Origin: a virus
Length of the DNA stretch: 60,520 bases
Direction: 5' to 3' (one strand)
IMG/VR virus record: IMGVR_UViG_3300044621_001247
Coordinates: 1 to 60,520 of that record
Position 1 is the stretch's first letter. Every line of letters begins with the position of its first letter. Below are positions 1-48,257 of the stretch, in pieces. The notes below the pieces were generated by a model that saw only the letters and a program-made list of their open reading frames with translations, did not search any database and was not told where the DNA came from. Made by a program: the position numbers and the translations under genes.

Positions 1-2009
1 GGTGCTGTCGGAATGACGAGTATGGTGTCCTTCCTGGGTTCGATGACCGTGTCGAAGACCTGGCTCTCAAGCACCGTCTGCGACTGAGAGAGGTCGTTGG
101 AGACGGACGATTCCGGGATGAAGATGATGTCTGCCGCATTGTCGTCCTGGGCGAACAGGCTGTATGCTGCCATGAGTTCTGAAAGGGTAGCCGCGCTGTT
201 TCCAGCCGAGTCTCCGAACTTCAACTGAGTGTCGTATGACCCTACCCGCGTGTAGGTGATGCCGTCAGCACCGACCTTCTGCGAGGTGATGTCTCCGAAG
301 ACCGTGCTTGCAAGCGATGTGCTGTTGCCCAATCCGCCCTGATACGGAAGAACCTTCGTCATGTAGACGAACTGCGAGTTGGTGTTGATGTAGTCCTTGT
401 AGAAGATGGACTCTCCGTCCAGGTTCTTGGCATCGGATGCCTTGGAGAGGAGTTCAAACCGCTCAAGGATGGAACCCTTAGTACCGAACTTTCCACCCGC
501 ATCGACAACTGCGATGCTGATCTCGTCGTTCGATCCTCCCTGCGACAGGGCATAGGACGAAGTGGCAGGGATGCTTCCGAACAACTTGGACGAGGAGAAC
601 GGCTCTCCGCTGGATGTAGTCGTGGAAGATGAGTCGCTGCGAACGCCAAACTGCACGATTCCGAACTTGAGGTTGTTCCTGACCCCCGTGATGCCACCCG
701 TGACATCGAAGGTGATTCCGACCGTCTCGATGTTGGACGAGTCCTGGTCAATCCTGCGCTTGTAGGATCTGCCTCCGGTGATACCGATCAACTGCGCCCA
801 ACCCTTGACGGTTCCCGATGGAGCAGAACCGATGAGTTCCTCTCCCGCCCGCGACCAGTTGATCACATAGTTCTCGAAGTTGCTTGTCTGGACCGACTGA
901 GGACTAGATGGCTCCACGAACAGCGGCTGGAAGTTGGAGGGAAGACCGCTTTCCGACACGACCTCTACGCGGCTGATGGTGAATGCCGTGTTGCCTGGAT
1001 CGGGAGATCCCGTGCGGAACCTGGTTCCCATGTTGGAGTAGTCTCCGTTCAGGAACAGGATGTCTACGAAGTTGCTGTTAGTGGTATTCAAGCGGCAGAA
1101 GATGTTGCCAGGAATACCGTAGTGGTAGAATGGATTGAACCTGTGGTCTCCGTCGCCAGGAGCGAACCTTTCGGCTGCGTAGTAGTTGGCTGCGTTGCCA
1201 TCGGGATTCGACCCAGTTCCCGTCAAGGTGAAGTTTTGAGCCGTGGTTCCACGGGCATACAAGATGTTGAACTTGTTGATGTCCTGATTGACGGTCGAGA
1301 TGAACTCGGTCGCTGCGACCTTGGGCTGAACCGTGACTGTGAACCAAGGAATGCTCTCGAACGAGACACCAGCCGAGGACTGCTGCGCACCGCTTCCGCG
1401 ATCCGAGAAGCCCGTGTATGTCACTCCGTAGTTTCCGCTAGATACTCCCGTGATGGCTCCTGCATAACCACCAAGTAGGGTGAAATCGCTGTATGCGGGG
1501 GTGGAAACGCTGTCGGATGTTCCTCCGTCGAAGAGGACGACTCTGAGCGAGTTTCCGAATGTGCCAGGATACCTTGCCTTGAAGTATGCCTTCGTCTCGA
1601 TCCCGTCTCCTGCCGAGAATCCACCAAGAGTCCTGAACTGGTCGATGTTGCGGATGGTCCGCTGATCAACGCTGCCGATCCATGTCACGCCCGCATCGTC
1701 CGATGTGGCATTGACCTCTCCAGCCTTGATGGCACGGATGACCTTCAGAGGCGAGGAGTAGCGGAGGAAGTTTGCCGCAGCGTTGAAGTCCTGGTTTCCA
1801 TCGACGGCGGATGCATCGCTTGTCGGCTTTCCGAAGATGGTCGCAAGGTTGCTTTCCGTGCTGATGTTGGTGGCAACCAGACCTGGTCCCCAGTTGAAGA
1901 TTCCGACCATGCCGCCAACATTGAGTCCCTCGGGGACGATGAACTGCGAGAGGTCGATCTCTGAAACATTTACTCCAGGACTGAGTTGCGTTGGAATGGG
2001 ATTAGCCAT
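1..2009 (-). CDS. Tail sheath protein paralogue (partial)
   Basis: Open minus-strand frame that starts at 2009 and runs off the left edge without a stop, giving at least 669 residues. The N-terminus (QLSPGVNVSEIDL, then GGMVGIFNWGPG) matches that of the adjacent sheath gene (QLSPGVNFSEIDL, then GGFAGVFQWGPAE), so the two are paralogues. T4 gp18-type sheath proteins form the contractile tube around the tail tube; the N-terminal strand normally contributes to inter-subunit mesh contacts. It follows the first sheath gene after nine bases and has an AAGGAGA ribosome site. The C-terminal contraction domain is outside the window. Whether it is a second functional sheath or a specialised variant cannot be told. 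Confidence 0.85.
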   Translation of the reverse strand, partial: MANPIPTQLSPGVNVSEIDLSQFIVPEGLNVGGMVGIFNWGPGLVATNISTESNLATIFGKPTSDASAVDGNQDFNAAANFLRYSSPLKVIRAIKAGEVNATSDDAGVTWIGSVDQRTIRNIDQFRTLGGFSAGDGIETKAYFKARYPGTFGNSLRVVLFDGGTSDSVSTPAYSDFTLLGGYAGAITGVSSGNYGVTYTGFSDRGSGAQQSSAGVSFESIPWFTVTVQPKVAATEFISTVNQDINKFNILYARGTTAQNFTLTGTGSNPDGNAANYYAAERFAPGDGDHRFNPFYHYGIPGNIFCRLNTTNSNFVDILFLNGDYSNMGTRFRTGSPDPGNTAFTISRVEVVSESGLPSNFQPLFVEPSSPQSVQTSNFENYVINWSRAGEELIGSAPSGTVKGWAQLIGITGGRSYKRRIDQDSSNIETVGITFDVTGGITGVRNNLKFGIVQFGVRSDSSSTTTSSGEPFSSSKLFGSIPATSSYALSQGGSNDEISIAVVDAGGKFGTKGSILERFELLSKASDAKNLDGESIFYKDYINTNSQFVYMTKVLPYQGGLGNSTSLASTVFGDITSQKVGADGITYTRVGSYDTQLKFGDSAGNSAATLSELMAAYSLFAQDDNAADIIFIPESSVSNDLSQSQTVLESQVFDTVIEPRKDTILVIPTA

Positions 2010-2018
2010 TTTCTCTCC

Positions 2019-3929
2019 TTAGATGATCTCGGTGAAGGTGCTGTCTGTCCTGGTCGCGATGAAGTTCAACTGGATGAAGTTGATGCTTCGGTTGGGCTTG
2101 ATGAAGATGTCTGCGACGAACTGGTTGTTGTCGATGACCTGACCTGTGTTGTTGGTCTCGTCGCACACGACCTTGAAGTCGGTGATGCCGCGCTGCGCCT
2201 GTATGCTCCTGAGGTAGGGGATGACCAGGTTGCGGAACTGAGACCTAGTGAACTCGTCGTTGAACTCGAAGAGGCTGAACTTCGCTGCGGTGGAGATAGC
2301 CCTCTCCACCGTGATGAAGAGCCTACGGACATTGATTCGGTCGAACGCGGACGGCTTCTTGAGAAGGGTCTTGTCTCCGTAGAGAAGGGTTCCCTCTCCG
2401 CTGAATGTAGCCACGGGATTGACACCCGCCGAGTAGAGGATGTCACGCGCAGCCTGATCGGGGTTGAACGCCAGTTTCACGACATTCTTCAGCGATCCAC
2501 GGTTCGGTCCCGCTGGGGAGAACCAAGGCTGAGACGTGAACTCGCTCCTTGCGGCAAGACCAGCCGTGTCGGAGTTCAGAGGGATGTATCGGAACAAGTC
2601 GTTGTACTTGTCGTAGACATACTTCCATCCGCTGTCCATGAAGACATAGGACGAGTTGATGTTGTAGGCATTGCGGGTCGCCACGACATTGTTCGTGGCT
2701 GTGATCTGAGACTTGTTGAGGACATCGCTGAGTTTTGGCGAGATGAAGACAACGCAGTCCTTGCGGGCATCAGCCATGTCCCTGAGCAACTTGACGATGG
2801 TCTCAGCCTGTGAGTCGCCGCCAGCGCGTCCTGCCACGATGAGCGACACATCGATGTTCTCGCGGTCAGCCAACTTGGAGTAGCCGTTGGTGTAGATCCT
2901 GCTGCTGGCATTTGTTCCTGCGGTAGCACCACCGAGGCTGTAGCGGATGACCTTGGCGAATCCACCTGAGACATCGCTGAACGAAGTGCCTAGAGGCTGC
3001 TCTGAGGCTGCTCCCCAGATGCTCTTGATGTTTCCACCCCAGATGTATGTCGAGTCGTTGTTGATCGTGCTCGTCACATAGTTTGGCTGGTTGTTGTTGT
3101 CCTTGCTGTCGAAAGCCTTGGACACCGACTGATATGTCTCGAGAACGGAGTTCTTGGTTCCCGTGAAAAGACCGTCCTCGTCGATGACCGCGATATTCAG
3201 TTCGTCGTTCGCTCCACCGGCATTGGTTGCCTGTGTGCTGGTGTCTGCGGCAAGCGAGAAGAGATCCGCATACTTGCTGCGGTATGTGATGACGGTTCCG
3301 TTGGGAATGGTGCTTGCCACCGTGCTCTTGAGGGTGGCAGTCAGACCAGTGGCAGCGTCGATGAGGAAGACCTGCGAGAAGTTCTGCGTCTGGAATATGA
3401 GTTTGTCGTTCTCCTCGACCGTTCCGCCGATTGCCGTGGTGAAGGTGATGGTGTTCGTTCCAGACGAGGCGGTGGCTCCGAGAGTCAGGCTAGCCTGTCC
3501 GTCTCCGTCCAGAACCACGACCTTGAGGGAGTTTCCGATGACACCTGGGCAGCGGGCATAGAAGGGAAGGGTCAAGCCCGATCCAGCAGCGAAGAAATCA
3601 TCGTCGTTGAGGTAGATCTGACCAGTCGCTCCGCTGGAGTTTGCCGTTGTCTCGTCGCTTCCGACGACGCGGACGATCTTGAGGTTTCTCCCATATTGGA
3701 GGAAGTTAGCCGCAGAATGGAAGTCGATGCCGTCATCCGTGCGAGTAGGCTTTCCGAAAACCCTTACGAGATCGTCTTCGGAAGTGACGGTGACGACCTT
3801 TTCGGCTGGTCCCCACTGAAACACGCCAGCAAAGCCACCTGTGGTGGTCGAGAGGTTTGGAACCACCGTGGTGAGGTCGATTTCCGAAAAGTTCACACCA
3901 GGACTAAGTTGTACGGGCAGTCTGCTCAT
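2019..3929 (-). CDS. gp18: Contractile tail sheath protein
   Basis: This 636-residue protein has the usual length and features of T4-type sheath proteins: a conserved N-terminal arm (QLSPGVNFSEIDLT), early FGKPTRTDDG and FHSAANFLQYGRNLKIVR segments typical of the family, and a conserved C-terminal domain (about residues 490-636: VKLAFNPDQAARDILYSAG, then RRLFITVERAIS and a final IQLNFIAT strand). Many copies polymerise on the tail tube and contract on infection. It lies downstream of the terminase genes, the T4 order 16-17-18, and is followed by a paralogous sheath gene. The start has GGGAGAAAC as ribosome site. Identification is firm. Confidence 0.96.
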   Translation of the reverse strand: MSRLPVQLSPGVNFSEIDLTTVVPNLSTTTGGFAGVFQWGPAEKVVTVTSEDDLVRVFGKPTRTDDGIDFHSAANFLQYGRNLKIVRVVGSDETTANSSGATGQIYLNDDDFFAAGSGLTLPFYARCPGVIGNSLKVVVLDGDGQASLTLGATASSGTNTITFTTAIGGTVEENDKLIFQTQNFSQVFLIDAATGLTATLKSTVASTIPNGTVITYRSKYADLFSLAADTSTQATNAGGANDELNIAVIDEDGLFTGTKNSVLETYQSVSKAFDSKDNNNQPNYVTSTINNDSTYIWGGNIKSIWGAASEQPLGTSFSDVSGGFAKVIRYSLGGATAGTNASSRIYTNGYSKLADRENIDVSLIVAGRAGGDSQAETIVKLLRDMADARKDCVVFISPKLSDVLNKSQITATNNVVATRNAYNINSSYVFMDSGWKYVYDKYNDLFRYIPLNSDTAGLAARSEFTSQPWFSPAGPNRGSLKNVVKLAFNPDQAARDILYSAGVNPVATFSGEGTLLYGDKTLLKKPSAFDRINVRRLFITVERAISTAAKFSLFEFNDEFTRSQFRNLVIPYLRSIQAQRGITDFKVVCDETNNTGQVIDNNQFVADIFIKPNRSINFIQLNFIATRTDSTFTEII

Positions 3930-3979: not shown

Positions 3980-5674
3980 TCAGTACCACCCACCCGCGCC
4001 ATGATTCATGCGGTCTTCCCAGAACTTCTCCGCGTTTTCCTTGTGCCAGACCGCACCGTCCTCGAATGCCGTGGTGGAAATCTCGTCATCCACCCCGTCC
4101 TCGACGAACCCAAACGGAAGCATCTCCTCCTCTATCTTCTCTATCTGCTCCTTGTAGATGTCCTTCTTGATGTCCATGTTGGTGACATCCTTGAAGTAGG
4201 GCTGAGTGGACATCCACCCGAAGAGAACCAGTGTCATCACAAGGTCGTCGTTGTAGCCAGCCTCAGCCTCGAACGAGTTTCTCTTGGACACATAAGAGTA
4301 GAGTTCCTTGATTGTGTCGAAGTCCTCCACGATCAGGCTGTTTCCCTCCAGCAGGGTCTTGAGGACGGAGCATCCAAGACGCTTGACCACCTCGGATGTA
4401 CGGACTCCGAACTGCTTGGTTCCTACTCCGAACCCGCCGTCCATGACCTGACCCTTCCTTCCCCTGTGGGTGCATTTCAGGAGGTTCTCGTATTCCAGTT
4501 CCGAGTGGATGGCATCAGCCACCTGTCCTCCCATGTCGTTTATCTCGACCAGCACATGCGCATTGTTGTACTGCCTTGCTGCCATGTGGATGACATTCGG
4601 GAAGATCAGGGGGGATATCTTGTTGTTGCGGAAGGTGGCAACCACCTTGTAGGGTGTGCTGGTGATGTCGAACACGCTGAAGGCAGAGTAGTCCTGCTCC
4701 GTTCCATGCGAGACATCCACCGCCATGGCATAGATGTGCTTTGGTTCAGCCTTCTCGTACACCTTGAACCCCTCTCCGTTCTCGAATACGGGGTTCTTGT
4801 ACGCCAGCGTCTTCAACTTGGCTGGCGATATGAGGGTGTGGATGGAGCCTAGGAACTCGCAGTTGTGCTCGGTGTTGAACTGCTCAAGAGAGGTGTTGGC
4901 AATCGTCTCTTCCATCCACTTCTCGTCGCGACCAGGAACATCAGACCAGTGGACTTCTATCGGGATGTATGTGTTCCTCTTGTTCGTGGCATCCGTCCAC
5001 ATCTTGTAGAACATGTTCATGCCGTGGGGAGTGGACACCACGATCATCTTGGTGTCCTTGCCGGACGAAATGGTCGGATAGACCGAGGAGAAGAACTCTT
5101 CAGCCACATTGTCGGGGACATAGGCAAACTCGTCCAGTAGGATGGCATTCAGGGACATACCACGGACAGCCGATGACGAGGTCGCTGAAGCGATGACGCG
5201 AGACCCGTTCTCAAGTTGGATCGACCCCTTGTTCCACTCCGTGATTCCCTGCTGAAGCCACCTTGGAAGATACTCGTATGCCAGTTTCAGCCTGGCAAGA
5301 AGTTCCCTTGCCGTGCTCATCTTGTTGGCAAGGATAGCCACATTCATGCTCTGGTTGAACAGGATGTAGTGCAGGAGATAGGCAGTCACCGTGGTTGACT
5401 TGCCAGCCTGTCGCGGCAACTTGGCAATGACGAACCTGTTCTCGTGGATCGTCCGCACTATCTCTTCCTGGTAGTCGTAGAGGTCGAAGGGAACGAGACC
5501 CTTGTCTAGCGACACAATCTTGATGTATTTCTGCACGAAGTAGATGGGATCCCTGGCACATCGTGCGTATTCCGCCACCTGCTCCTGAGTCCAGTTTATC
5601 TTGACCCCAGGAGCCTTGAGGTTCTGGTTTCCCATGTACCAGCCTTCTGTCTTTGCTTCAGGCATCTTCGCCAT
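3980..5674 (-). CDS. gp17: Terminase large subunit (packaging ATPase/nuclease)
   Basis: A 564-residue TerL of the gp17 family, the motor that pumps DNA into the prohead and cuts the concatemer. Visible motifs: Walker A RQAGKST at residues 88-94, Walker B AILLDEFA at 177-184, coupling motif VVSTPHG at 212-218, and the RNase H-like nuclease with Asp320 (AMAVDVSHG), an acidic VEIND patch near 377-380 and a C-terminal YNDDLVM segment. All expected catalytic residues are present, so it should be active. It overlaps the small terminase gene by 17 bases, suggesting translational coupling, and precedes the sheath genes as in T4. A 50-base gap separates it from the sheath gene. Confidence 0.97.
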   Translation of the reverse strand: MAKMPEAKTEGWYMGNQNLKAPGVKINWTQEQVAEYARCARDPIYFVQKYIKIVSLDKGLVPFDLYDYQEEIVRTIHENRFVIAKLPRQAGKSTTVTAYLLHYILFNQSMNVAILANKMSTARELLARLKLAYEYLPRWLQQGITEWNKGSIQLENGSRVIASATSSSAVRGMSLNAILLDEFAYVPDNVAEEFFSSVYPTISSGKDTKMIVVSTPHGMNMFYKMWTDATNKRNTYIPIEVHWSDVPGRDEKWMEETIANTSLEQFNTEHNCEFLGSIHTLISPAKLKTLAYKNPVFENGEGFKVYEKAEPKHIYAMAVDVSHGTEQDYSAFSVFDITSTPYKVVATFRNNKISPLIFPNVIHMAARQYNNAHVLVEINDMGGQVADAIHSELEYENLLKCTHRGRKGQVMDGGFGVGTKQFGVRTSEVVKRLGCSVLKTLLEGNSLIVEDFDTIKELYSYVSKRNSFEAEAGYNDDLVMTLVLFGWMSTQPYFKDVTNMDIKKDIYKEQIEKIEEEMLPFGFVEDGVDDEISTTAFEDGAVWHKENAEKFWEDRMNHGAGGWY

Positions 5675-6146
5675 CCTTCACTTCCGATTGGTCTATGATC
5701 TGCCGCGCTTCGTCCATGGCTTTGGAGAAACTGCGCTTTGGGTTTATGAGTTCCTGAAGATCCTTCGTGGAACCAAGGAACAAGGCATTGTTTATGTTCG
5801 TCTCGCCCTTGCTTTGGTACTTTTCCTGCTTGATGGTCTTCATGCGCTGATGCAGTTCGACCAAGTCCTTGTTGGTCTCCGCTACTGCCTTTATCATCTG
5901 CGCGACCACTTCGTAAGCCCGTGGTTCCTCGACCTCGGTTGCCACCTTCAAGGCTCCGTCCACAGCCATGAACCCAAGGCTGATGAGTTCCCGAAGGTTC
6001 TCCCTTGCCTTCTGGAAGTCCTTGTCTGCCTCGTCCATGTCCGTCTTGACGGCAAGCGGCTGACCATCCTTCCTTGCCAAAGGGGCTTCATCTGGCTGTA
6101 TGTTGAGTATCTCCGAGAGGCTGTCGTCCATCTTTCCCATGCTCAT
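5658..6146 (-). CDS. gp16: Terminase small subunit
   Basis: A 162-residue protein directly upstream of TerL and overlapping its start, the position of T4 gene 16. It is charged and helical, with a central coiled-coil-like stretch (residues about 60-115, including MIKAVAETNKDLVELHQRMK), as in gp16-type subunits that form rings, recognise DNA and stimulate the large subunit. An AAAGG ribosome site precedes the ATG at 6146; a second in-frame Met follows two codons later. The call rests on position, size and helical composition, since small terminases diverge strongly in sequence. Confidence 0.85.
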   Translation of the reverse strand: MSMGKMDDSLSEILNIQPDEAPLARKDGQPLAVKTDMDEADKDFQKARENLRELISLGFMAVDGALKVATEVEEPRAYEVVAQMIKAVAETNKDLVELHQRMKTIKQEKYQSKGETNINNALFLGSTKDLQELINPKRSFSKAMDEARQIIDQSEVKDGEDA

Positions 6147-6155: not shown

Positions 6156-6323
6156 TCATGTGTTGCCCACCAGGTACACCCTGATTATCTCCTTGTAAGA
6201 GAAACCCGTAGCCCCGTCGAATGTAGCCCCATCGGAGAATGTCACCCCGAGGAAGTTAGTCTGCGTTATCCCCACCGTGTAGTTGGTCAGGAAGCCGTCA
6301 AGAGTCTTTTCGTTGATCGTCAT
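6156..6323 (-). CDS. Small protein between gp15 and gp16
   Basis: A 55-residue frame with its ATG inside an ATGA overlap with the stop of the gp15 gene. Its stop lies nine bases before the gp16 start, so it fills the gap exactly. The product has a polar N-terminus, a short NYTVGITQTNFLGVTFSDG segment of strand-like character and ends KEIIRVYLVGNT. No family was recognised. Tight packing supports it as a real gene, probably a minor head-tail or tail protein expressed with gp15, but no function can be assigned. Confidence 0.6.
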   Translation of the reverse strand: MTINEKTLDGFLTNYTVGITQTNFLGVTFSDGATFDGATGFSYKEIIRVYLVGNT

Positions 6324-6979
6324 GGTTCGCTCATCAGTTCTTGGAATGTGAGGCGAACCTCGCGGATGATTCCCGAAGTCCTGATTCTGCCGAAGACGAA
6401 TGACTTGGCTGTGAAACTGAGGGTGTGGGTGACCATCCTGCGGGTCATCAGGTCTCCCTCATATTCCTCCGTGGCATTCACCGAGTTCAATATGATCGGC
6501 ACATCGATCTTCTTGTCCAGTTCCGTGAAGTTCATCGTGATGGTGAAGTCGGGGGTGAAGTTGGGCAGTATCTGCTCGACTATCTGATGACCGTCCTCGA
6601 TGTTCCTAGTCATGATGTTCAGGGTGAACTGGATGTTGTAGGGAACCTGATGGTAGGTGTTGGACAGCGTCTGATCCAGTTCGTCCTTCGGGGAAGTGGT
6701 CTTGTTGAGGGTGTTCAGTTTCCTTCCGCCGTCATACTGCATTCCCGTTATCTCGAAGCCGATCCTAGGAAGGATGTTCTCTACCGTGTCCCTGTCGCCA
6801 GCCTCGTCAAGTTCGATGACCCTTCTGTAGAACTTCTCCTTGGGACCATACGAGATGGGAACCTTGATCCTCTTCTTGCTGCTGTCGGGATACTCATGCT
6901 CCACGAACACCTCGTCGAAGAGGGATCCGAATGCGACCACCAGTTTCCGTATGCTACCGTTGTAGAAGTAGTCGAACAC
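6320..6979 (-). CDS. gp15: Tail sheath terminator / neck protein
   Basis: 219 residues beginning MFDYFYNGSIRKLVVAFGSL, closely patterned on the T4 gp15 start, followed by the family's RIKVPISYGPKEKFYRR segment, ETILPRI-like ENILPRIGFE, and IVEQILPNFTPDF near residue 140. In T4, a gp15 hexamer caps the tail tube and sheath and joins the finished tail to the head. Order gp13-gp14-gp15-gp16-gp17 is preserved, which reinforces the call. The gene starts three bases after the gp14 gene and couples to the next small gene through ATGA. Confidence 0.95.
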   Translation of the reverse strand: MFDYFYNGSIRKLVVAFGSLFDEVFVEHEYPDSSKKRIKVPISYGPKEKFYRRVIELDEAGDRDTVENILPRIGFEITGMQYDGGRKLNTLNKTTSPKDELDQTLSNTYHQVPYNIQFTLNIMTRNIEDGHQIVEQILPNFTPDFTITMNFTELDKKIDVPIILNSVNATEEYEGDLMTRRMVTHTLSFTAKSFVFGRIRTSGIIREVRLTFQELMSEP

Positions 6980-6982
6980 GGA

Positions 6983-7834
6983 TCACCACCTTCCCTCTCC
7001 GAACGGGTCTTTGTCCGTGAAGTCGATTATGTCCTTCGCGGCTCTCTCCCTTTCTATGGCATGGCTGTCGTCTGCGTTGGTGTCCAGGTACTTTTCGTCC
7101 GTGGACGCAAGGGCTGTGTATGTGGTCTGCACTCCCGACTTCCCCCCCTTCAGCGGAAGAAGGATGTCGGGTGTCCCCACCTCGTCGCTGACCTTGAGCG
7201 TCTTCTCCTGCTGCTTGTAGTCGATGACGGTCGCCTTGTATGTGCTGCTGGAGAATGCAGCACCCTGATAGATGGTCTCGCCTTCCTGGAAGGTGACTCC
7301 TGCTGACAGCGTGAACGACCTGATCGGCTTCACCAGGTTGGTCTCTATGGCATCCACTTCCACGATCTCCGTGTCCAGTTTCTCCGCGTTGTAGCGGAAC
7401 CTCTCGCAGTAGAGTTCATATGCAAAGAACGAGTTCCTGTTGTTGACATACTTGATCTCAAACAGACCCCCGTAGTCGGGAAAGTAGACCAGGTCTCCTT
7501 CCTGAGGGATGGTGTCCGTCCCGTACTTCGCGCTTTCCTCGGTGAACCTGCTCTTTGCCACCATGAGGTTCAATGAGTCCTGCAAGTTGATTCCGAACTT
7601 GTCTATCACCCTGCCTAGAGACTCGTAGAACTCGTAGTTGCTGACGAACATCTCTATCTGAAAACTCTTCTCGAACTTGGATATGGTGTCCTCTCCGAAG
7701 AGAGCGTCCAAGTTCTGAAACTTCCTGAAGATGTAGTGGACATCGAAGCCGAAGATCTGTATCTGCTCCTTGACCAGTTGCTCCAGAAGGTTTGAGTCCC
7801 TGAACGAGACCTTGAAGTAGGGGTTTCTTGCCAT
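6983..7834 (-). CDS. gp14: Neck protein gp14
   Basis: 283 residues, similar in length to T4 gp14. Family-like features include an early IQIFGFDVHYIFRKFQNLD stretch followed by LFGEDTISKFEKSFQIEMF, then a YFPDYGGLFEIKYVNN segment near residue 130. gp14 forms part of the neck ring between portal/gp13 and the tail. The gene abuts the end of gp13 with no spacer and lies three bases before gp15. Its C-terminus is charged and acidic. Context and internal motifs agree, so this is a confident call. Confidence 0.93.
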   Translation of the reverse strand: MARNPYFKVSFRDSNLLEQLVKEQIQIFGFDVHYIFRKFQNLDALFGEDTISKFEKSFQIEMFVSNYEFYESLGRVIDKFGINLQDSLNLMVAKSRFTEESAKYGTDTIPQEGDLVYFPDYGGLFEIKYVNNRNSFFAYELYCERFRYNAEKLDTEIVEVDAIETNLVKPIRSFTLSAGVTFQEGETIYQGAAFSSSTYKATVIDYKQQEKTLKVSDEVGTPDILLPLKGGKSGVQTTYTALASTDEKYLDTNADDSHAIERERAAKDIIDFTDKDPFGEGRW

Positions 7835-8605
7835 TTAGCCCACCATGAAATCCACGGGCAGTTCGTACTTGGATTGAACCGTGTCCTCTATCTTGTTGAT
7901 CTCGTCCACGGCTTCGCTGTAGATGAGAGCGGCATCGAACTTCATCCCGCCAGGCAAGGGGATGTCCTTGAACTTGATGAGGTTCGATGCCCACTGCCGC
8001 TTGATGAGTGCGGTAACATACTTCTTGAGGAGGCGGTCGTTGTATATCTCTGGGAATGTGTCGGCATTCAGGGCAACATACGACTCTACGAGTATCTTGT
8101 CTCCCACATCGAATGTCTTCGTCCAGTCGGTTCCCAACTTGATGCGGTTGGTCACTCGGCTGAACTCTACCTGCTTCTCGGGATTGAGGAACAACTGAAG
8201 CATGTTGAGATACTGCTTCGTGCTGTCGTAGTAGTTCAGGTTGGACGATCCAGTGAGGAAGCCGTTGAAGTAGTCGTTGAGCATCAACTGATACTGAACG
8301 CTGAACATCCCGCTCTGCACAGCCTGATCGACCACGAAGACCTTCTGTATGCTCACTATCTCCGCTCCAGTCGAACCCGTGGGGATGCTGGCTGTGGAGA
8401 TGTACTTGTTGTCGATGTCCTGCTGAGTTATGGTGTAGGGAAGGTATGCCTTCTCTATTCCGTCGAAGTGGTACTGAGAGAAGAACTGCAAGGCATCGTC
8501 TATGCGATCCTCGACCTGAGCGTCATCCACGTTGATTTCGATGACGGGAAACCCTAGCCTTCTGAGGGCATAGTCCTTGAGTTGTTCCCTTGATCCGATG
8601 GACAT
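7835..8605 (-). CDS. gp13: Neck protein gp13
   Basis: 256 residues beginning MSIGSREQLKDYALRRLG, then VIEINVDDAQVEDRIDDALQ, the hallmark N-terminus of T4-type gp13 neck (head-tail connector) proteins. gp13 docks on the portal and, with gp14, creates the tail-binding site. The start is fixed by a strong AAAGGAGG ribosome site eight bases upstream. The preceding small gene overlaps its first 52 bases in another frame. It sits just upstream of gp14, as in T4. Confidence 0.95.
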   Translation of the reverse strand: MSIGSREQLKDYALRRLGFPVIEINVDDAQVEDRIDDALQFFSQYHFDGIEKAYLPYTITQQDIDNKYISTASIPTGSTGAEIVSIQKVFVVDQAVQSGMFSVQYQLMLNDYFNGFLTGSSNLNYYDSTKQYLNMLQLFLNPEKQVEFSRVTNRIKLGTDWTKTFDVGDKILVESYVALNADTFPEIYNDRLLKKYVTALIKRQWASNLIKFKDIPLPGGMKFDAALIYSEAVDEINKIEDTVQSKYELPVDFMVG

Positions 8606-8898
8606 GGTTGCCTCCTTTCATTCCGAAGATTCTCAAAGTATCTAGCGTCGTTCTCTCTTTGGCTCCTGCACATCCTCAGTTCAGCGAGGCGATGCGCCAA
8701 ATCATCGATGCCAGAGCAAGGAACTGGTAGACCCCTCTGCACATGTCCATCGGAGATGTAGTGGCGGCTGGTGTCGTAATAGTGAACCAGTTCTCCGGCA
8801 TGGGGATAGTGAGGATTCACCATCAGTATGTCTGTAATGTGAAACTGCTCTCCTTGGAAGAAAACAACATCGCCGGATCTGTTGAACACCACGCTCAT
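8554..8898 (-). CDS. Small protein between fibre cluster and neck
   Basis: 114 residues starting within an ATGA overlap with the end of the 642-residue fibre-like gene, which supports it as a genuine coupled gene. The first 75 residues look structured (VVFNRSGDVVFFQGEQFHI, with several His and aromatic residues), whereas the last 30, which overlap gp13 in another frame, are polar and low in complexity. Function unknown; a minor virion or chaperone role is suggested only by its position between receptor-binding genes and the neck. Confidence 0.65.
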   Translation of the reverse strand: MSVVFNRSGDVVFFQGEQFHITDILMVNPHYPHAGELVHYYDTSRHYISDGHVQRGLPVPCSGIDDLAHRLAELRMCRSQRENDARYFENLRNERRQPCPSDQGNNSRTMPSEG

Positions 8899-10823
8899 GC
8901 CACTTCGTTCGAGCCTCCATCGTTGGTTCCAAGGTATTCTCCCGTCTTCTTTGCGTATGTCAGGAATCTGGAGATCTTCGCTGAGGACTTGCTTCCTGCT
9001 GTTTTCAGGCTCGCCGTGAGAGAGTCGAACGCCTCCTTGTTCTTGGACTGATATTCCAGCAGGTCCAACCTGAGATTGCTCATTTCGGTCGGGCTGATGT
9101 TTCTTGTTATGCCCATTCCATCAACGAAGGAATACGATGCCTGAGATATTCCCTGCGTGATCAGATAGCCGTTCTCCATGATGTAGGACATCATAAGTCT
9201 GTTCGTTGGGTCTATGAACAGAGCGGTATAGGCATTTGCTCCTCCGTAGCAGTTGCCCGCTCCACCCGAAAACAGTCTTCGGTATGGATTCTGACCAAAC
9301 TGGCTGGCTAGAGGGCTGCCGCTGGAACCACGGTTCCCCGAAGCCCCCTCGATCATTACGAACTGCAAGAACCCATATTCATAGATCGAATCATTGGTGT
9401 AGTTCTTCACTATCGTGTCAAGAGACGGGTTGTTGTCGTACACACCATGCAAGGCAAAGCAATGGTCGTATCCCCACGGTCCAGTGTATCCCGTTCCTCC
9501 CACGGGGTAAAACTGACGAACTATTGCACCGTAGTTGGTCGAGAATCCAGTGGCATCCGAAAGCCCAGTTGCTCCGTCTATCCCCAAGGCATATCTCACC
9601 ACATCGGATACGCCAAGTTCAGTGGAATCCAGAAACGTAGATCCTGGAACGCTCTGACTCGTTATGCGCCTCGCGTATGAACGGATGTAATCCGTGCTCT
9701 CCGCAAAGAAGTTGGAACTGCCAGATACGCCGTCAAAGTGCATGATCACAGCCGTCTCGGAACTTATGGTGAACCCGCTGACCGTGGAACCAGCCAGAGT
9801 TCCGCCTCCGAACGGAAGGAATCCATATCCACCTGTCCCGAAAACTCCAGCGGTTCCGGTTGATTCCAGCAACCTGAAGTTGTCGATGTAGCCATCGAAC
9901 GATTCCGTTCCTGCTGGATTGTTTCCGAGGAACAATCCGCCATTTCCACGGGTTTCGGGGAAAGACCCCGCCGTGACGCTGACGAGGAACTTGTTTGCGT
10001 GATTGAAGTATCCCGACATCGCATAGCACACGCCAGCCCCGTTCCTCACTAGAGCCACGGCTATATGATGCCATTGGTTGACGGTCAAGCCAGCGGTGTT
10101 GACGATGTTTTCGGTTTTGTCGTATCCGGCAGTGGTTCCATAGGTCTGCCAGGCAAACTGAAGTTGACCAGCAGAACTGTCGAACGAAATCTTCCAGTTT
10201 GCCGATGCTCCAGTCGGTCCCTTCTGAACAAGGGTGAAGTTGTTGGCGGTGGATGTCGGATAGAAGTACATCTCCACGGCGTAGGAGAATGTTCCTCCCT
10301 TGGCAATGTCGTTGTGCGGAGCGGTAGCACCGCCGGTTTGATTCCTCTTGCTGAGGTTTGTTATGTGGATGAAGCCGCCCGTGTATCCCGTCAGGCTACG
10401 GGTGAACTTGCAGGATCCACTTCCGCAGATGAAAACCGAATTGTCGTGCTTCGGTCTGGTCGTTGGATCCTGCTGATTGAACACGGGAACAGCCTTGGTG
10501 ATGTCCTGAATCACCCTGGTGTTTCGGTTTATCGTTTGCTGTGGATTCTCCATGAACAGCGTTACCTCAACCCGTGGATCATATGTCGATGAGTCGGAAA
10601 ACTTGAACGATTCCTCTCCTGTGGTCAAAGGAGTGAATGAACCATCGAGGGTTTCGGTGAGGACTGTGTCGGGTGGAAGAAGGCTTTCTTCCACCAGCCC
10701 GAATGCTCCGGGCATGGAATAAAGAGCGGGAGAACCCAGAAAGGTTGACTCGGAAGGGTACGTTTCTGGCGAAACAGACAGGATTTTCCCGTCCGAATCG
10801 AATGTGCATATCTTGTATCCCAT
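8895..10823 (-). CDS. LamG/ConA-like lectin-domain virion protein
   Basis: 642 residues. Residues about 150-315 have the jelly-roll pattern of LamG/concanavalin A-like domains: FSYAVEMYFYPTS, WKISFDSSAGQLQFAW, VNQWHHIAVALVRNG and YIDNFRLLES occur in the expected order. Such domains bind carbohydrates, so a receptor-binding or adhesin role is likely. A serine/glycine-rich middle and a helical C-terminus (about 575-640, with NLRLDLLEYQSKNKEAFDSL) follow. It ends the run of fibre genes and precedes the neck genes; 11 bases separate it from the previous gene. Assignment as a fibre or adhesin is inference from domain and context. Confidence 0.75.
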   Translation of the reverse strand: MGYKICTFDSDGKILSVSPETYPSESTFLGSPALYSMPGAFGLVEESLLPPDTVLTETLDGSFTPLTTGEESFKFSDSSTYDPRVEVTLFMENPQQTINRNTRVIQDITKAVPVFNQQDPTTRPKHDNSVFICGSGSCKFTRSLTGYTGGFIHITNLSKRNQTGGATAPHNDIAKGGTFSYAVEMYFYPTSTANNFTLVQKGPTGASANWKISFDSSAGQLQFAWQTYGTTAGYDKTENIVNTAGLTVNQWHHIAVALVRNGAGVCYAMSGYFNHANKFLVSVTAGSFPETRGNGGLFLGNNPAGTESFDGYIDNFRLLESTGTAGVFGTGGYGFLPFGGGTLAGSTVSGFTISSETAVIMHFDGVSGSSNFFAESTDYIRSYARRITSQSVPGSTFLDSTELGVSDVVRYALGIDGATGLSDATGFSTNYGAIVRQFYPVGGTGYTGPWGYDHCFALHGVYDNNPSLDTIVKNYTNDSIYEYGFLQFVMIEGASGNRGSSGSPLASQFGQNPYRRLFSGGAGNCYGGANAYTALFIDPTNRLMMSYIMENGYLITQGISQASYSFVDGMGITRNISPTEMSNLRLDLLEYQSKNKEAFDSLTASLKTAGSKSSAKISRFLTYAKKTGEYLGTNDGGSNEVA

Positions 10824-43561: not shown

Positions 43562-43636
43562 GTGCCGTGGGAGGTCTTGGCATCCTCAGCCTGATTTATA
43601 AACAGGTAAGAACAGGTTCGATTCCTGTACGGCATA
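43562..43636 (+). tRNA. tRNA-like gene, possibly tRNA-Ile(UAU), unusual anticodon arm
   Basis: Acceptor GTGCCGT pairs with ACGGCAT (43629-43635), D-arm GAGG/CCTC, T-arm ACAGG TTCGATT CCTGT, discriminator A. The anticodon stem GCCTG/CAGGT encloses nine bases (ATTTATAAA) instead of seven; alternatively an A-A mismatch closes a seven-base loop with UAU in the centre, reading AUA. The rest of the cloverleaf is sound, so it may be functional or recently degenerated. Confidence 0.6.
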
Positions 43637-43648
43637 CATCAACAACCG

Positions 43649-43677
43649 ACCGTGCGCCATGTGGATCCACGCACGGT
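43649..43677 (+). other. Strong hairpin after tRNA-like gene
   Basis: ACCGTGCG (43649-43656) pairs perfectly with CGCACGGT (43670-43677) around a 13-base loop. No T-run follows, so it is more likely a processing or stability element than a terminator. Confidence 0.5.
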
Positions 43678-43717
43678 TCGGAGACTACAAGGATCCACTG
43701 ACTATGGAGACATCGAC

Positions 43718-44086
43718 ATGATTAGGTTTGTTACTGACAGCGAAAGAAGCGGCAAGAGCGTGACTGGTCTGCTTGCCCTCCTTTTCGGCATCGGCTTCTT
43801 CTGGTTCACCTTCCTCTCACCTGAGACGGTGAACTCTGCCACGAAGGCAAACTACTGCCTCGTCGCGGCTGCTTTGTCGTTCGCGGGATACCTGTGGTTC
43901 CGCCTTCAGGAGACGAAGGCATGGCTCGAAAGCGAGGAGAAGGGTCGCAACGATGACCGCAAGGAAAACTACAGCAACGAGTCCATCCGTGGTCTGCACG
44001 ACCGCATCGACCGCCTTGAGGAGCGTTCCAAGTGCAAGAACGGCGGCGGGTGCATGGCAGACAACGAAGACACATTCGGATTGTGA
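43718..44086 (+). CDS. Two-helix membrane protein
   Basis: 122 residues starting at 43718, preceded by GGAGAC as ribosome site; the frame extends upstream but through the hairpin after the tRNA. Two transmembrane segments are visible: TGLLALLFGIGFFWFTFL (about 16-33) and YCLVAAALSFAGYLWFRL (about 45-62). The rest is a charged helical tail (NDDRKENYSNESIRGLHDRI) with two cysteines near the end (CKNGGGC). Function unknown; size and topology are compatible with a holin or a superinfection protein, but no family is recognised. Confidence 0.7.
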   Translation: MIRFVTDSERSGKSVTGLLALLFGIGFFWFTFLSPETVNSATKANYCLVAAALSFAGYLWFRLQETKAWLESEEKGRNDDRKENYSNESIRGLHDRIDRLEERSKCKNGGGCMADNEDTFGL

Positions 44087-44098
44087 GTCAAGTCCTGA

Positions 44099-44105
44099 CT
44101 AAATA
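44099..44105 (+). promoter_or_regulatory. Possible T4-type late promoter
   Basis: CTAAATA followed by GG, 74 bases before the first tRNA of the array and just after the membrane-protein stop. It resembles the core of T4-type late promoters (TATAAATA). Confidence 0.3.
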
Positions 44106-44178
44106 GGTTCCGTCCACCTACCTGGGGAAACGACAAGGACGGCAGAGGGGAGCGCATTCTGCGATAACGCTCTTTCGT

Positions 44179-44250
44179 GCGGATGTAACTCAGAGGTAGA
44201 GTCTCGGTTTTCCAAACCGATGGTCGTGGGTTCAAATCCCATCGTCCGCT
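44179..44250 (+). tRNA. tRNA-Gly(UCC)
   Basis: Acceptor GCGGATG/CGTCCGC, anticodon stem TCGGT/ACCGA with loop TTTCCAA (anticodon TCC), T-arm GTGGG TTCAAAT CCCAT, discriminator T as usual for glycine. First of ten closely packed tRNAs; no CCA is encoded, so host CCA addition is needed. Confidence 0.93.
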
Positions 44251-44251
44251 T

Positions 44252-44322
44252 TGCGAGTGAGTGAGACGGCAACACACTAGGCTCATAATCTAGGGAAATG
44301 GGTTCGACTCCCATACTCGCTA
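44252..44322 (+). tRNA. tRNA-Met(CAU)
   Basis: Anticodon stem CTAGG/TCTAG, loop CTCATAA (anticodon CAT); T-arm ATGGG TTCGACT CCCAT. Acceptor TGCGAGT/ACTCGCT leaves a T1-T72 mismatch. With a C34 modification it could instead read AUA as isoleucine. Confidence 0.88.
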
Positions 44323-44324
44323 TT

Positions 44325-44398
44325 GTGACTGTAGAACAAATGGATAGTTCAGGAGATTGTGATTCTCCCCGTTGCGGGTTCAAGTCCCGCCAGTCACC
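44325..44398 (+). tRNA. tRNA-His(GUG)
   Basis: Acceptor GTGACTG/CAGTCAC, anticodon stem GGAGA/TCTCC with loop TTGTGAT (GTG), T-arm GCGGG TTCAAGT CCCGC, discriminator C, the histidine identity base. Confidence 0.92.
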
Positions 44399-44410
44399 CT
44401 CTGTGATAAC

Positions 44411-44481
44411 TGCCCGATTGTGTAATGGTAGCACCCGAGACTCTGATTCTCGTTGTCCTGGTTCGAGTCCAGGTTGGGCAA
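44411..44481 (+). tRNA. tRNA-Gln(CUG)
   Basis: Acceptor TGCCCGA/TTGGGCA, anticodon stem CGAGA/TCTCG with loop CTCTGAT (CTG), T-arm CCTGG TTCGAGT CCAGG, discriminator A. Confidence 0.92.
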
Positions 44482-44488
44482 CTTTTCC

Positions 44489-44560
44489 GTGGGGATAACT
44501 CAGTAGGTAGAGTAGCGGACTGAAAATCCGTCAGCGAAGGTTCGATTCCTTCTCCTCACA
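44489..44560 (+). tRNA. tRNA-Phe(GAA)
   Basis: Acceptor GTGGGGA/TCCTCAC, anticodon stem GCGGA/TCCGT with loop CTGAAAA (GAA), T-arm GAAGG TTCGATT CCTTC, discriminator A. Confidence 0.93.
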
Positions 44561-44561
44561 T

Positions 44562-44632
44562 TGGTCTGTAGCACAACGGTAGTGCGCCGTCCTGTTAGGA
44601 CGGGGTTACAGGTTCAAATCCTGTCGGACCAG
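44562..44632 (+). tRNA. tRNA-Asn(GUU)
   Basis: Acceptor TGGTCTG/CGGACCA, anticodon stem CCGTC/GACGG with loop CTGTTAG (GTT), T-arm ACAGG TTCAAAT CCTGT, discriminator G as usual for asparagine. Confidence 0.93.
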
Positions 44633-44633
44633 T

Positions 44634-44706
44634 TGGACTGTGGCTCAGTAGGCAGAGCATTCCCTTGATAAGGGAGAGGTCGTTGGTTCGATTCCAACCA
44701 GTCCTA
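44634..44706 (+). tRNA. tRNA-Ile(GAU)
   Basis: Anticodon stem TTCCC/GGGAG with loop TTGATAA (GAT), D-arm GCTC/GAGC, T-arm GTTGG TTCGATT CCAAC, discriminator A. Acceptor TGGACTG/CAGTCCT again has a T1-T72 mismatch, like the tRNA-Met here. Confidence 0.9.
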
Positions 44707-44713
44707 TTCGACT

Positions 44714-44795
44714 GATCGTTTCCCGAGCAGCAAAGGGGAGAGTCTGTAAAACTCTTGGTCTTCGACCTTCGTAGGTGCAAGTCCTACACGATCAA
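44714..44795 (+). tRNA. tRNA-Tyr(GUA)
   Basis: Class II tRNA: acceptor TGATCGT/ACGATCA, anticodon stem AGAGT/ACTCT with loop CTGTAAA (GTA), long variable arm, T-arm GTAGG TGCAAGT CCTAC, discriminator A. Confidence 0.9.
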
Positions 44796-44804
44796 CTTCA
44801 GAGA

Positions 44805-44878
44805 CGGGACATGGCTCAGTTTGGTAGAGCGTTCGCTTTGGGAGCGAGATGTCGCAGGTTCAAATCCTGCTGTCCCGA
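44805..44878 (+). tRNA. tRNA-Pro(UGG)
   Basis: Acceptor CGGGACA/TGTCCCG with the C1-G72 pair typical of proline, anticodon stem TTCGC/GCGAG with loop TTTGGGA (TGG), T-arm GCAGG TTCAAAT CCTGC, discriminator A. Confidence 0.93.
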
Positions 44879-44888
44879 TTGTGTGTCT

Positions 44889-44960
44889 GCCCTCATAGTA
44901 TAGCGGCTATTACCGTTGATTTGTAATCATCAGACCTCAGTTCGATTCTGAGTGGGGGCT
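44889..44960 (+). tRNA. tRNA-Thr(UGU)
   Basis: Acceptor GCCCTCA/TGGGGGC, anticodon stem GTTGA/TCATC (one T-T mismatch) with loop TTTGTAA (TGT), T-arm CTCAG TTCGATT CTGAG, discriminator T. Confidence 0.88.
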
Positions 44961-45105
44961 TTCAAAAACCTTCCTCTTGCCTGTAATGCGCAAAGGCTCA
45001 AGTAGAGGAGAAAATGGAGAACACCACTCCATTGTGGGTTTCGCGGAAAACGGATTGGGTACTTGCAAAGCCCTACCGAATGTTCCAAGGTTGTCCCACC
45101 AGTTC
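44961..45105 (+). ncRNA. Structured noncoding spacer in tRNA array
   Basis: 145 bases between tRNA-Thr and tRNA-Glu with no coding frame, where other spacers are mostly under 15 bases. Helices seen: TCCTCT (44972-44977) with AGAGGA (45004-45009), enclosing GCC/GGC; and AATGGAG (45013-45019) with CTCCATT (45027-45033). It may be a small RNA or the relic of a tRNA. Confidence 0.4.
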
Positions 45106-45179
45106 GGTCTAGTAGATTAGTTGGCTAAATCGTTGGACTTTCACTCCAAAGACCGTGGGTTCGACTCCCACCTAGATCA
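45106..45179 (+). tRNA. tRNA-Glu(UUC)
   Basis: Acceptor GGTCTAG/CTAGATC, anticodon stem TTGGA/TCCAA with loop CTTTCAC (TTC), T-arm GTGGG TTCGACT CCCAC, discriminator A. Confidence 0.93.
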
Positions 45180-45186
45180 TTCTTCC

Positions 45187-45549
45187 ATGCCATGCTATGC
45201 AATCTCCATCCGTGAAGACACGCAGCACCTCCTCAAGGACGGCGGGGGATACCTCTTCTACAGGAAGAAGTCCCTTGCCGTCGAGGTCTGCGATGAGATG
45301 AATGCCCTGCGGAAGGGAATGAAACTGGAGCAGGTCTATTCGGTCTGCAAGGTGGACGAGAAGGATTGGAAGGGATACCCCTTCACATACGACAAGGAGT
45401 TCGATGATGACGGTTCCAGAGGAGATGTTCAACGCTATACGAAACGCACGGCACTTCATGCTGGCACTGATGGATCCAAAGCAGACTCCAAAGGTTCCAA
45501 GAGAAGTCCGAAAGAGGGCAAGGGACAGACTCAGGCACTTCCCTTCTGA
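45187..45549 (+). CDS. Small protein of unknown function
   Basis: 120 residues from the ATG at 45187, seven bases after tRNA-Glu; the frame runs further upstream only through the tRNA. The first 75 residues look folded (CYAISIREDTQHLL, GGYLFYRKKSLAVEVCDEMN, then a charged MKLEQVYSVCKVDEKD stretch). The last 45 are low-complexity and overlap the next gene by 146 bases, and could be an artefact of a frame shift near the end of a once shorter gene. No clear ribosome site. Confidence 0.55.
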   Translation: MPCYAISIREDTQHLLKDGGGYLFYRKKSLAVEVCDEMNALRKGMKLEQVYSVCKVDEKDWKGYPFTYDKEFDDDGSRGDVQRYTKRTALHAGTDGSKADSKGSKRSPKEGKGQTQALPF

Positions 45550-45751
45550 GTTCGACATCAGCGAGATGGAAAAGTTCCATGCCCTCAGGGATCAGGATCC
45601 AAACATCCTTTTCGGAGAGTGCATGAAGAGGCTTGACTCCATCCGTGGGGAGATTACCATAGCGGAGCGAAAGTTGAGCGATGTCGGCAACGACATCGTG
45701 ACCGCGATCAGGAACACCAGAGGAGGCAACGATGCCCAACAGCAAGGCTAG
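45404..45751 (+). CDS. Conserved small phage protein
   Basis: 115 residues; an AAGGAG ribosome site five bases before the ATG fixes the start. NAIRNARHFMLALMDPKQTP then KVPREVRKRARDRLRHFPSE resembles short proteins common in T4-like phages, function unknown. Helical throughout, with a C-terminal coiled-coil-like stretch (SIRGEITIAERKLSDVGNDI). It overlaps the previous frame by 146 bases and the next gene by 20. Confidence 0.7.
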   Translation: MMTVPEEMFNAIRNARHFMLALMDPKQTPKVPREVRKRARDRLRHFPSEFDISEMEKFHALRDQDPNILFGECMKRLDSIRGEITIAERKLSDVGNDIVTAIRNTRGGNDAQQQG

Positions 45752-45998
45752 GAATGTCGCGAGGAAGCACCGCAAGTCCAGGATTCGGTGGAAGAACAAG
45801 AACAAGGCAAGCCTGGCTCTAGCCAAGGACAAGGCATCGAAGCCCAAGAAGAAGGTCTCGGTGTTCGACAGGGCAAGGGCGGCACAGCAGAATGTTCCCC
45901 TGTCGGGGGCAACCCCGTCTGCCGTATCTAACCCGACAGGGGAACGCCGCACCGCTTCGATGATGACTTTCGACGAACTCAAGGCAACTGGAGGCTGA
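45732..45998 (+). CDS. Small basic protein
   Basis: 88 residues with a very basic N-terminus (NSKARNVARKHRKSRIRWKN) and lysine-rich KDKASKPKKK segment, then a polar tail. Similar short MPNSKA-type proteins recur in phages. Nucleic-acid or ribosome binding is plausible from charge alone. It overlaps the end of the previous gene. Confidence 0.65.
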   Translation: MPNSKARNVARKHRKSRIRWKNKNKASLALAKDKASKPKKKVSVFDRARAAQQNVPLSGATPSAVSNPTGERRTASMMTFDELKATGG

Positions 45999-45999
45999 G

Positions 46000-46269
46000 A
46001 TGGAAAAGACACAGATGGTCGAGTCCCTTCACCGTGGAATCTGCGAGGTGGTGTTCACCAAGGCAGACGGCACGGAGCGCACCATGAAATGCACACGGTC
46101 GCAGAGCCATGCTCCCATTTCCGTTCCCGCATCCAACCTCCTGACTGAGGACGGGTCGGTCGGACCCGATGTCATTCCCGTGTGGGATGTCGAGGCAGGG
46201 CAATGGAGGTCGTTCAACGCGAAGTCGGTGAAGTCCTTCCGCTCCGTTGGTTCGTTGCTGAACGGATGA
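46000..46269 (+). CDS. Small SH3-like beta-barrel protein (DUF2693-type)
   Basis: 89 residues. LHRGICEVVFTKADGTERTM near the start and VIPVWDVEAGQWRSFNAKSV near the end match the DUF2693-type small beta barrel common in T4-like phages, function unknown. It starts one base after the previous stop and ends seven bases before the intron-containing tRNA-Lys. Confidence 0.75.
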   Translation: MEKTQMVESLHRGICEVVFTKADGTERTMKCTRSQSHAPISVPASNLLTEDGSVGPDVIPVWDVEAGQWRSFNAKSVKSFRSVGSLLNG

Positions 46270-46276
46270 GCGAGTC

Positions 46277-46540
46277 GCCCCTCTAACTCAATGGTAGAGT
46301 AACGGACTTTCAAATGGAACTGCCGTGCAGGAATGCACGGATCGAATCTTGTCAAAGTCGGTGAACTCCCTGTCGAAAGACGAGACAACGCCGAGCCAAG
46401 CGCAGCGATGCGAAGGTGTAGAGACTTGACGGCAAGCACCCAGAACGGGTGAAGGCAAAGTCCAGACCACGAACGGAAGGCGGCGAAAGCCGAAGTGGTA
46501 GGTAATCCGTCAGTTGTGGGTTCGAGTCCCACGGGGGGTA
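46277..46540 (+). tRNA. tRNA-Lys(UUU) interrupted by a group I intron
   Basis: Exon 1 is 46277-46310 and exon 2 is 46503-46540. Joined, they give acceptor GCCCCTC/GGGGGGT, D-arm ACTC/GAGT, anticodon stem ACGGA/TCCGT, loop CTTTTAA (anticodon TTT), T-arm GTGGG TTCGAGT CCCAC and discriminator A. The splice point lies inside the anticodon. Other splice positions would give an eight-base loop or a different anticodon, so the lysine identity depends on the predicted sites. Confidence 0.87.
46311..46502 (+). ncRNA. Group I intron (IC3-like) in tRNA-Lys
   Basis: 192-nt intron without an ORF. P1: exon TTT plus intron C pairs with GGAA, giving a U-G wobble at the 5' splice site. P2: CCGTGCA (46323-46329)/TGCACGG around GGAA. 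Core blocks resemble the Azoarcus tRNA-Ile intron as I recall it: AACGCCGAGCCAAGC at 46387-46401, GAAGGTGTAGAGACT at 46412-46426, GAAGGCAAAGTCCAG at 46451-46465. GNRA-capped helices occur (CGCA GCGA TGCG; GGC GGCGAAA GCC). The last base, G, serves as omega-G. Self-splicing is predicted. Confidence 0.9.
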
Positions 46541-46544
46541 TTGC

Positions 46545-46626
46545 GCCAGCGTGGCGGAATGGCATACGCAGGATGCTCAAAACATCCGGATCCTAGATCG
46601 TGCAGGTTCGACTCCTGTCGCTGGTA
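46545..46626 (+). tRNA. tRNA-Leu(CAA)
   Basis: Class II tRNA: acceptor GCCAGCG/CGCTGGT, anticodon stem GGATG/CATCC with loop CTCAAAA (CAA), long variable arm, T-arm GCAGG TTCGACT CCTGT, discriminator A. Four bases after tRNA-Lys. Confidence 0.92.
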
Positions 46627-46638
46627 TTGGAGGAACAC

Positions 46639-47010
46639 ATGCAGACACAGAACATGACCAAGACAGAACTCATCGAAAACATCGAAATCCTCGCGGAAAA
46701 GTGCGAGAAGTTGATCGCCGAACTCGCGCAGCGCACCGCCGCTCTTGATCAAATGACGGTTCACCGCAATGCGACGATAGAACATCGAGACATCACGCAG
46801 CAGGTGCTAAACGGTATCACCGTTGCGTTATCTCAGCGCACCGCCGACCTCGCCCGCGTGACCGCCGAGCGCGACGAGGCGCGGCGGTGGGTGTGCAGAA
46901 AGACGGTCTACGCAGAAAGGAAACCCCACGATTTGGTTGATTCCACCGAAGCAAAGGTTCTCCTCGAAGCACAGATGCGCGGCTGGGACTGCTTCGCAAA
47001 GGAGGGGTGA
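46639..47010 (+). CDS. Coiled-coil protein, member of a local paralogue family
   Basis: 123 residues from the ATG at 46639 with GGAGGA ribosome site. Mostly coiled coil (LIENIEILAEKCEKLIAELA and LSQRTADLARVTAERDEARR) and ending MRGWDCFAKEG. The heptad segment and the GWDCF tail recur in the next gene, with long identical DNA stretches, so the two arose by duplication. Function unknown. Confidence 0.7.
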   Translation: MQTQNMTKTELIENIEILAEKCEKLIAELAQRTAALDQMTVHRNATIEHRDITQQVLNGITVALSQRTADLARVTAERDEARRWVCRKTVYAERKPHDLVDSTEAKVLLEAQMRGWDCFAKEG

Positions 47011-48217: not shown

Positions 48218-48230
48218 GGGTTGAACTTTG

Positions 48231-48237: not shown

Positions 48238-48257
48238 TCTCCACAGAGGAGATTTCC

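Follow-up and report, generated by a model that had tools for sequence, protein, structure and literature searches.

Tandem, unequal tail-sheath paralogues in a T4-like phage group known from metagenomes

Two adjacent tail-sheath genes, here called A and B, lie on the minus strand at the left end of IMGVR_UViG_3300044621_001247, an uncultured virus record of 60,520 bases that was analysed whole and is referred to below as the window. The pair is real, conserved and beyond chance, and a tandem sheath pair of this kind is a trait of a T4-like phage group known only from metagenomes. B is an ordinary gp18, the T4-type sheath protein, and A is an enlarged paralogue with conserved ends and a long, variable insert. 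Judged from the sequences, the two proteins probably build a two-subunit mixed sheath in which A displays a variable outer module.

Results and Discussion

Two sheath genes side by side

The two genes and their parts are as follows.

2019..3929 (-): gene B, T4-type gp18 tail sheath of the ordinary kind, complete, 636 amino acids
2061..2357 (-): C-terminal sheath domain of B, PF17482 (Pfam)
2010..2018 (-): gap of 9 nucleotides between the stop of B and the ATG of A, containing a ribosome-binding-like GGAG
3..2009 (-): gene A, the enlarged second paralogue of the tail sheath, 669 amino acids up to the contig end, where it is cut; 906 amino acids in contig L002 (open reading frame (ORF) and L002 comparison)
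1710..2009 (-): A residues 1-100, comprising the sheath N-arm and the beginning of domain III; identity to B is 40% there (PHROG/BLASTP)
600..1517 (-): insert of A, about residues 165-470, hypervariable among relatives (no PHROG or tblastn match)
3..590 (-): A residues 474-669, where homology with B 221-396 picks up again; the contig ends before the remainder, which contains the C-terminal sheath domain (BLASTP)

B matches PHROG 23 (tail sheath) along its whole length (E 6.1e-121), and its domain III N, subtilisin-like and C-terminal sheath domains score 40.1, 51.4 and 61.6 bits in Pfam (cut-offs 27, 31.4 and 26.9). Profile comparison with PDB matches it to T4-like sheaths (best E 4.2e-143). 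The predicted model of B, with a mean predicted local distance difference test score (pLDDT) of 62.2, has a sheath fold and is similar to the Klebsiella KP1 sheath (Z 30.1, root-mean-square deviation 4.1, 386 residues) and to T4 gp18 (Z 29.1). An earlier note on this DNA had set the length of both genes against that of T4 gp18. According to the excerpt of PMC3004832, T4 gp18 is itself 659 residues long, so B is of ordinary length; the contrast holds for A, as seen in L002, and not for B, and only A is oversized.

The same note had described two adjacent sheath paralogues starting with the same sheath arm, and both statements are borne out. The two minus-strand ORFs each match PHROG 23 (A through L002), and the trees given below agree. 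BLASTP aligns A and B in two blocks, one of 159 N-terminal columns (40% identity, 107 bits, E 2e-28) and one between A 474-666 and B 221-396 (28%, E 1e-12); the best of 500 shuffled A sequences reached 26.9 bits against B. The part of A inside the window has an N-arm matching PHROG 38392 (E 8.5e-10, residues 7-100), no Pfam family and the later B-related block. The note had also worried that the left gene might be truncated, and A is indeed cut at the edge of this contig. However, contig L002, which matches the window with a single mismatch over 5,978 nucleotides (99.98% identity), carries A whole. That protein matches PHROG 23 at residues 5-899 (E 2.6e-90) and has the Pfam C-terminal sheath domain (62.4 bits, E 4.6e-17, cut-off 26.9), which the cut copy of A in the window lacks. 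Thus, A is a full-length sheath paralogue, shortened only by the contig edge. The subtilisin-like domain (cut-off 31.4) is below threshold in A of L002 (23.6) and L009 (24.2) and above it in L004 (33.7), L007 (32) and L008 (34.8).

The gene next after A in L002 is gp19. The order B - A - gp19 - gp20 is seen in L004, L005, L007, L008 and L112, with a single gp19 between A and the portal gene, and ribosome-binding-like sites precede both A and B.

Distribution of the pair

IMG/VR was scanned with A, B, the conserved block of A and genes of a cousin lineage described below, and 276 complete sheath ORFs remained as distinct after removal of identical proteins. Three of the five viral scans contributed the best 80 loci of at most 600 listed candidates, and the sample is biased by these retrieval limits; as loci were fetched by similarity, it is not random. 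For the pair rule, close B genes were those with at least 800 bits to B, and at least 350 nucleotides of room were required downstream. Another sheath ORF follows B in every one of the 26 distinct close genes with room. The 27th, in L158, is without room by this rule, and the start of A is visible there. Among the 221 other B-like or gp18 genes, 12 had no room and 208 of the remaining 209 were single, the one tandem case (L200) belonging to the cousin lineage. Similarity to B separates the two kinds cleanly, with 580 bits for the highest-scoring single gene and 823 for the lowest-scoring tandem gene of the close group.

In all 29 loci where B and A are both complete, 9 or 11 nucleotides lie between them; these loci include 23 distinct A genes, with some contigs fetched twice. 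Across these loci A is 892-1010 amino acids long and open throughout, and B is 630-638 amino acids long. Exactly two PF17482 matches were found in 8/9 long records, with one match in the cut window. In the stretches fetched from 12 named T4-like phages, each phage shows a single sheath gene. A phage collection matched with B yielded 2,702 places in 2,609 records, so that some records have more than one sheath place; one of them, Erwinia phage pEa_SNUABM_22, is a jumbo phage of another type, and known two-sheath phages may be among the remaining multi-place records.

Conserved ends and a variable insert

In the C-terminal block (B 526-636), mean identity is 76.2% between A and B, 64.6% between A and other gp18s, and 70.3% between B and other gp18s. 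The gp18s of other phages are 73.6% identical among themselves in this block, so A and B are equally alike. The ends of A also have nonsynonymous divergence (dN) well below synonymous divergence (dS), for example 0.102 against 0.68 in the C part of L005/L009.

Limits of the T4 gp18 domains were taken from a review by Leiman and others. In the excerpt of that review (PMC3004832), domain I comprises residues 98-188 and domain II residues 88-97 and 189-345, both exposed to solution, and the N and C termini face the interior. The A profile aligns to T4 gp18 at residues 2-93 and 340-647 only, and the T4 stretch left unaligned corresponds to domains I and II. Hence the interior parts are retained in A, and the exposed part is replaced or enlarged. 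The insert of A is roughly 300-410 amino acids long; three A inserts had no match in PHROGs (E up to 0.1), tblastn at E 0.01 against 50,697 phage records found no match to the insert of A, and Pfam gave no second domain in five A proteins.

Mean identity over all pairs is 76.3% in B, 67.9% at the start of A, 33.6% in the insert and 71.1% at the end of A. The drop is abrupt in some close pairs. L007 and L020 share 94-100% of their nucleotides along gp17, B and the start of A, 54-67% over about A 184-534, and 97-100% from about A 734. Identity and dS for this pair are 99% and 0.06 in B, 99% and 0.05 in the N part of A, 60% and 1.17 in the insert, and 94% and 0.18 in the C part of A. L018/L019 drop likewise (86-98% in B, 47-64% in the insert), as do L019/L134 (97% in B, 56% in the insert). 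Inserts are alike in other close pairs (97% identity in L005/L006, 99% in L019/L126). Such a jump in dS between near-identical flanks points to recombination rather than point mutation alone; a donor for a swapped insert was not found.

Phylogeny of A and B

The alignment and tree with other sheaths that the earlier note had proposed were carried out. In the full-core tree of 47 rows, A and B are each supported as one clade (100/100 for both) and are joined with support of 96/84; the stem branch of A (1.29) is longer than that of B (0.60). The join recurs in separate trees of the N and C regions, at quick supports of 96 and 95, although other placements conflict. When the cousin lineage is included and long rows are omitted, the C region groups A with the cousin split gene (97/97), B with the cousin B (95/90), but all four together at no more than 62/51, and the corresponding values for the N region are 72/34, 85/79 and 92/96. 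We read these trees as indicating that the duplication preceded the split of the two lineages, with the exact root of A insecure.

A split gene in the cousin lineage

The cousin lineage was followed in four stretches (L151 65-5443, L148 2-4099, L200 9302-13807 and L251 1-2414). L200 has a gp18 (645 amino acids, 50.5% identical to B), a 747-amino-acid first half of an A-like gene and the start of the second half. In L151 a 756-amino-acid ORF comprises the N-arm and a long insert, and a 425-amino-acid ORF begins where the homology of A and B resumes and carries the C-terminal domain. This split pair is followed by a 605-amino-acid sheath paralogue (605-606 amino acids in the cousin lineage) and then gp19. 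L148 has the end of the first split ORF followed by the second and third ORFs, and L251 has the end of the second ORF, the third ORF and gp19. The four cousin sheath ORFs are thus pieced together from several contigs, and no single contig carries all four. A frameshift artefact was considered and ruled out: in L148, L151 and L200 the frame of the second ORF stops just before its own start, and this closure upstream of the ATG in three contigs shows gene fission. The split gene would offer a means to test how far a discontinuous sheath fold tolerates cutting.

A probable mixed sheath

The earlier note had suggested that the two proteins might form a mixed sheath, distinct collars or serve different stages. 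The mixed sheath is the best supported of these, and use at different stages is disfavoured by the coupling of the genes. An old tandem duplication would have given rise to A, with B staying the standard conserved gp18. A has retained its N-arm and C-terminal domain, the inner ends by which T4 subunits face the tube and link to one another, and having kept them it should fit the same lattice round the same gp19 tube. Its outward-facing middle would have acquired a long insert that is swapped or quickly diversifies among close relatives. A would then be a co-assembling subunit that places a variable surface module on some or many of the rings of the sheath; both proteins would occur in virions in some stoichiometry and order, and the module would be displayed outwards in this phage. 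Placing A and B in one sheath is suggested by the tight, co-transcription-like spacing, the ribosome-binding-like sites, the one gp19 beside A and the conserved ends, and a surface role for A by an insert that is both exposed and variable. The module may most simply be an adhesin or serve surface evasion, and an adhesion role for A is less certain than the mixed sheath with a variable module.

A wider and more tentative idea is that the sheath serves as a display scaffold, with an invariant subunit and a second one bearing an outward module exchanged by recombination, giving the whole tail a changeable coat for adhesion or immune evasion. In the cousin lineage the display subunit would be split in two (N-arm and module; C-terminal half) and accompanied by a further paralogue, with up to four ORFs for one sheath. 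Contractile sheaths are generally regarded as uniform helices of one protein. If the mixed sheath is true, the pair would allow a direct test of sheath surfaces in host contact or evasion, and would show how a contracting lattice copes with two unequal subunits, fast change being confined to the exposed part of one.

Several observations weigh against the mixed sheath with a variable module. The middle-region tree fails to join A and B, and the C-region tree with the cousin third paralogue, long rows kept, places A outside B and the other gp18s (100/98, with a long-branch warning). The frame of A is interrupted in three relatives (L113, L144 and L145), probably by sequence or assembly errors. 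The AlphaFold model of A (10 sequences) is unusable (mean pLDDT 38.2) and gives no fold for the insert. The main caveat is chimeric assembly of a metagenomic contig at conserved flanks, which could look like swapping in a single pair.

Among other explanations, a special ring at one end of the tail is the strongest, although we hold it to be unlikely. A would form a specialised ring at the baseplate or at the neck, as a collar, and B the helical trunk, as with minor paralogues in extracellular injection systems. This would be compatible with the sequences, as A retains its lattice ends and the B model also resembles Afp3 (Z 20.1) and Pvc3 (Z 19.3). Contractile machines with several sheath proteins are also known, from excerpts describing Afp2, Afp3 and Afp4 (PMC12961389) and Sheath1 and Sheath2 of BIS (PMC7394362). 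However, a hypervariable outer insert is unexpected in a protein that serves chiefly to dock to conserved neighbours, and a search limited to tube genes found no partner gene for an extra ring.

The tube genes themselves were considered as partners of the second sheath. Two tail-tube-family genes beyond gp19 were observed, one in L112 (391-978 of record G001) and one that follows gp23 and is shared by most of the T4-like loci here. Two gp19-family matches occur in seven or eight long records, but most single-sheath relatives likewise have the tube-like gene behind gp23, which is therefore unlinked to the sheath pair.

It is considerably less probable that A and B are alternative sheaths, each used singly and unmixed, so that duplication mainly yields tail variants. 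Each protein does have its own sheath ends and ribosome-binding-like site, but the 9-11 nucleotide spacing throughout the 29 loci favours joint expression, and no exception to the pair was seen in the lineage as sampled. Least probable of all is that A is a decaying or dispensable duplicate outside the virion, to which its longer stem branch and the three interrupted frames might point, given that A is open at full size in the 29 loci and that its ends have a dN much lower than dS.

Neighbouring genes and other features of the window

The gene order at the left end of the window, on the minus strand, is gp13-like, gp14, gp15, gp16, gp17, B, A. The genes upstream of B are as follows.

3980..5674 (-): gp17, large terminase, immediately upstream of B (Pfam/PHROG)
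5658..6146 (-): gp16, small terminase (Pfam/PHROG)
6320..6979 (-): gp15, tail-sheath stabiliser (Pfam/PHROG)
6983..7834 (-): gp14, neck / head-closure protein (Pfam/PHROG)
7835..8605 (-): head-tail adaptor, presumably gp13 (PHROG 211, head-tail adaptor Ad2)

The large terminase gene of L004 (2935-6041) is broken into ORFs of 138 and 588 amino acids with a 325-amino-acid ORF between them, which we take to resemble an intein or homing-endonuclease insertion. Adjoining the neck genes in the window (8895-10823, minus strand) is a 642-amino-acid protein with a lectin-like Laminin_G_3 domain (E 3.1e-12) and no PHROG match. On the plus strand, a permuted transfer-messenger RNA (tmRNA) is found at 50561-50757 by Rfam (RF04321, 57.1 bits, gathering threshold 47) and likewise by ARAGORN (tag AANMRMAA); it was not found in any of the five longer relatives searched. 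Fourteen transfer RNA genes lie at 43562-49850 on the same strand, mostly in one cluster at 44179-45179. The gene psbA is absent from 9/9 records. A host search for a relative in the contigs of 84,980 genomes gave 170 stretches fitting the pattern, none of which was confirmed.

Comparison with known systems

B is like the T4-type gp18 (PF04984/PF17482, PHROG 23) along its whole length and in its position between gp17 and the tail genes, and A shares the gp18 N-arm and C-terminal domain. A differs in its length of 892-1010 amino acids with a long variable insert, and the named T4-like phages have one sheath gene.

Two-component sheaths have precedents. The Pseudomonas jumbo phage PaBG has two sheath paralogues that arose by gene duplication, about 38% identical and both present in the structural proteome, as reported in the excerpt of PMC7412058; the likeness lies in the duplication. 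PaBG is a jumbo phage of another group, and its gp76 and gp213 are apart and both of about 58 kDa in that account, whereas A and B are adjacent and very unequal. In Afp and BIS, too, a single contractile machine contains at least two sheath paralogues, but these systems have no phage head and have several tube proteins, and the excerpts of PMC12961389 and PMC7394362 describe no variable insert. Their feature of an extra tube paralogue accompanying the extra sheath was not found here, since the second tube-like gene occurs in most single-sheath relatives as well. Two copies of the sheath occur in some phage genomes according to the excerpt of Evseev et al. 2022 (PMC9230969), where extra sheath domains positioned away from the tube are proposed to act in adhesion or stability. 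In contrast to the sheaths described there, the extra domain of the pair reported here is in one of two paralogues only and varies between close relatives.

Two-component sheaths as a principle are thus already known from PaBG, Afp and BIS. The comparison suggests as new points the split gene (split sheath genes not having been an aim of the literature searches), the adjacent unequal pair in T4-like phages, and the variable module in one partner.

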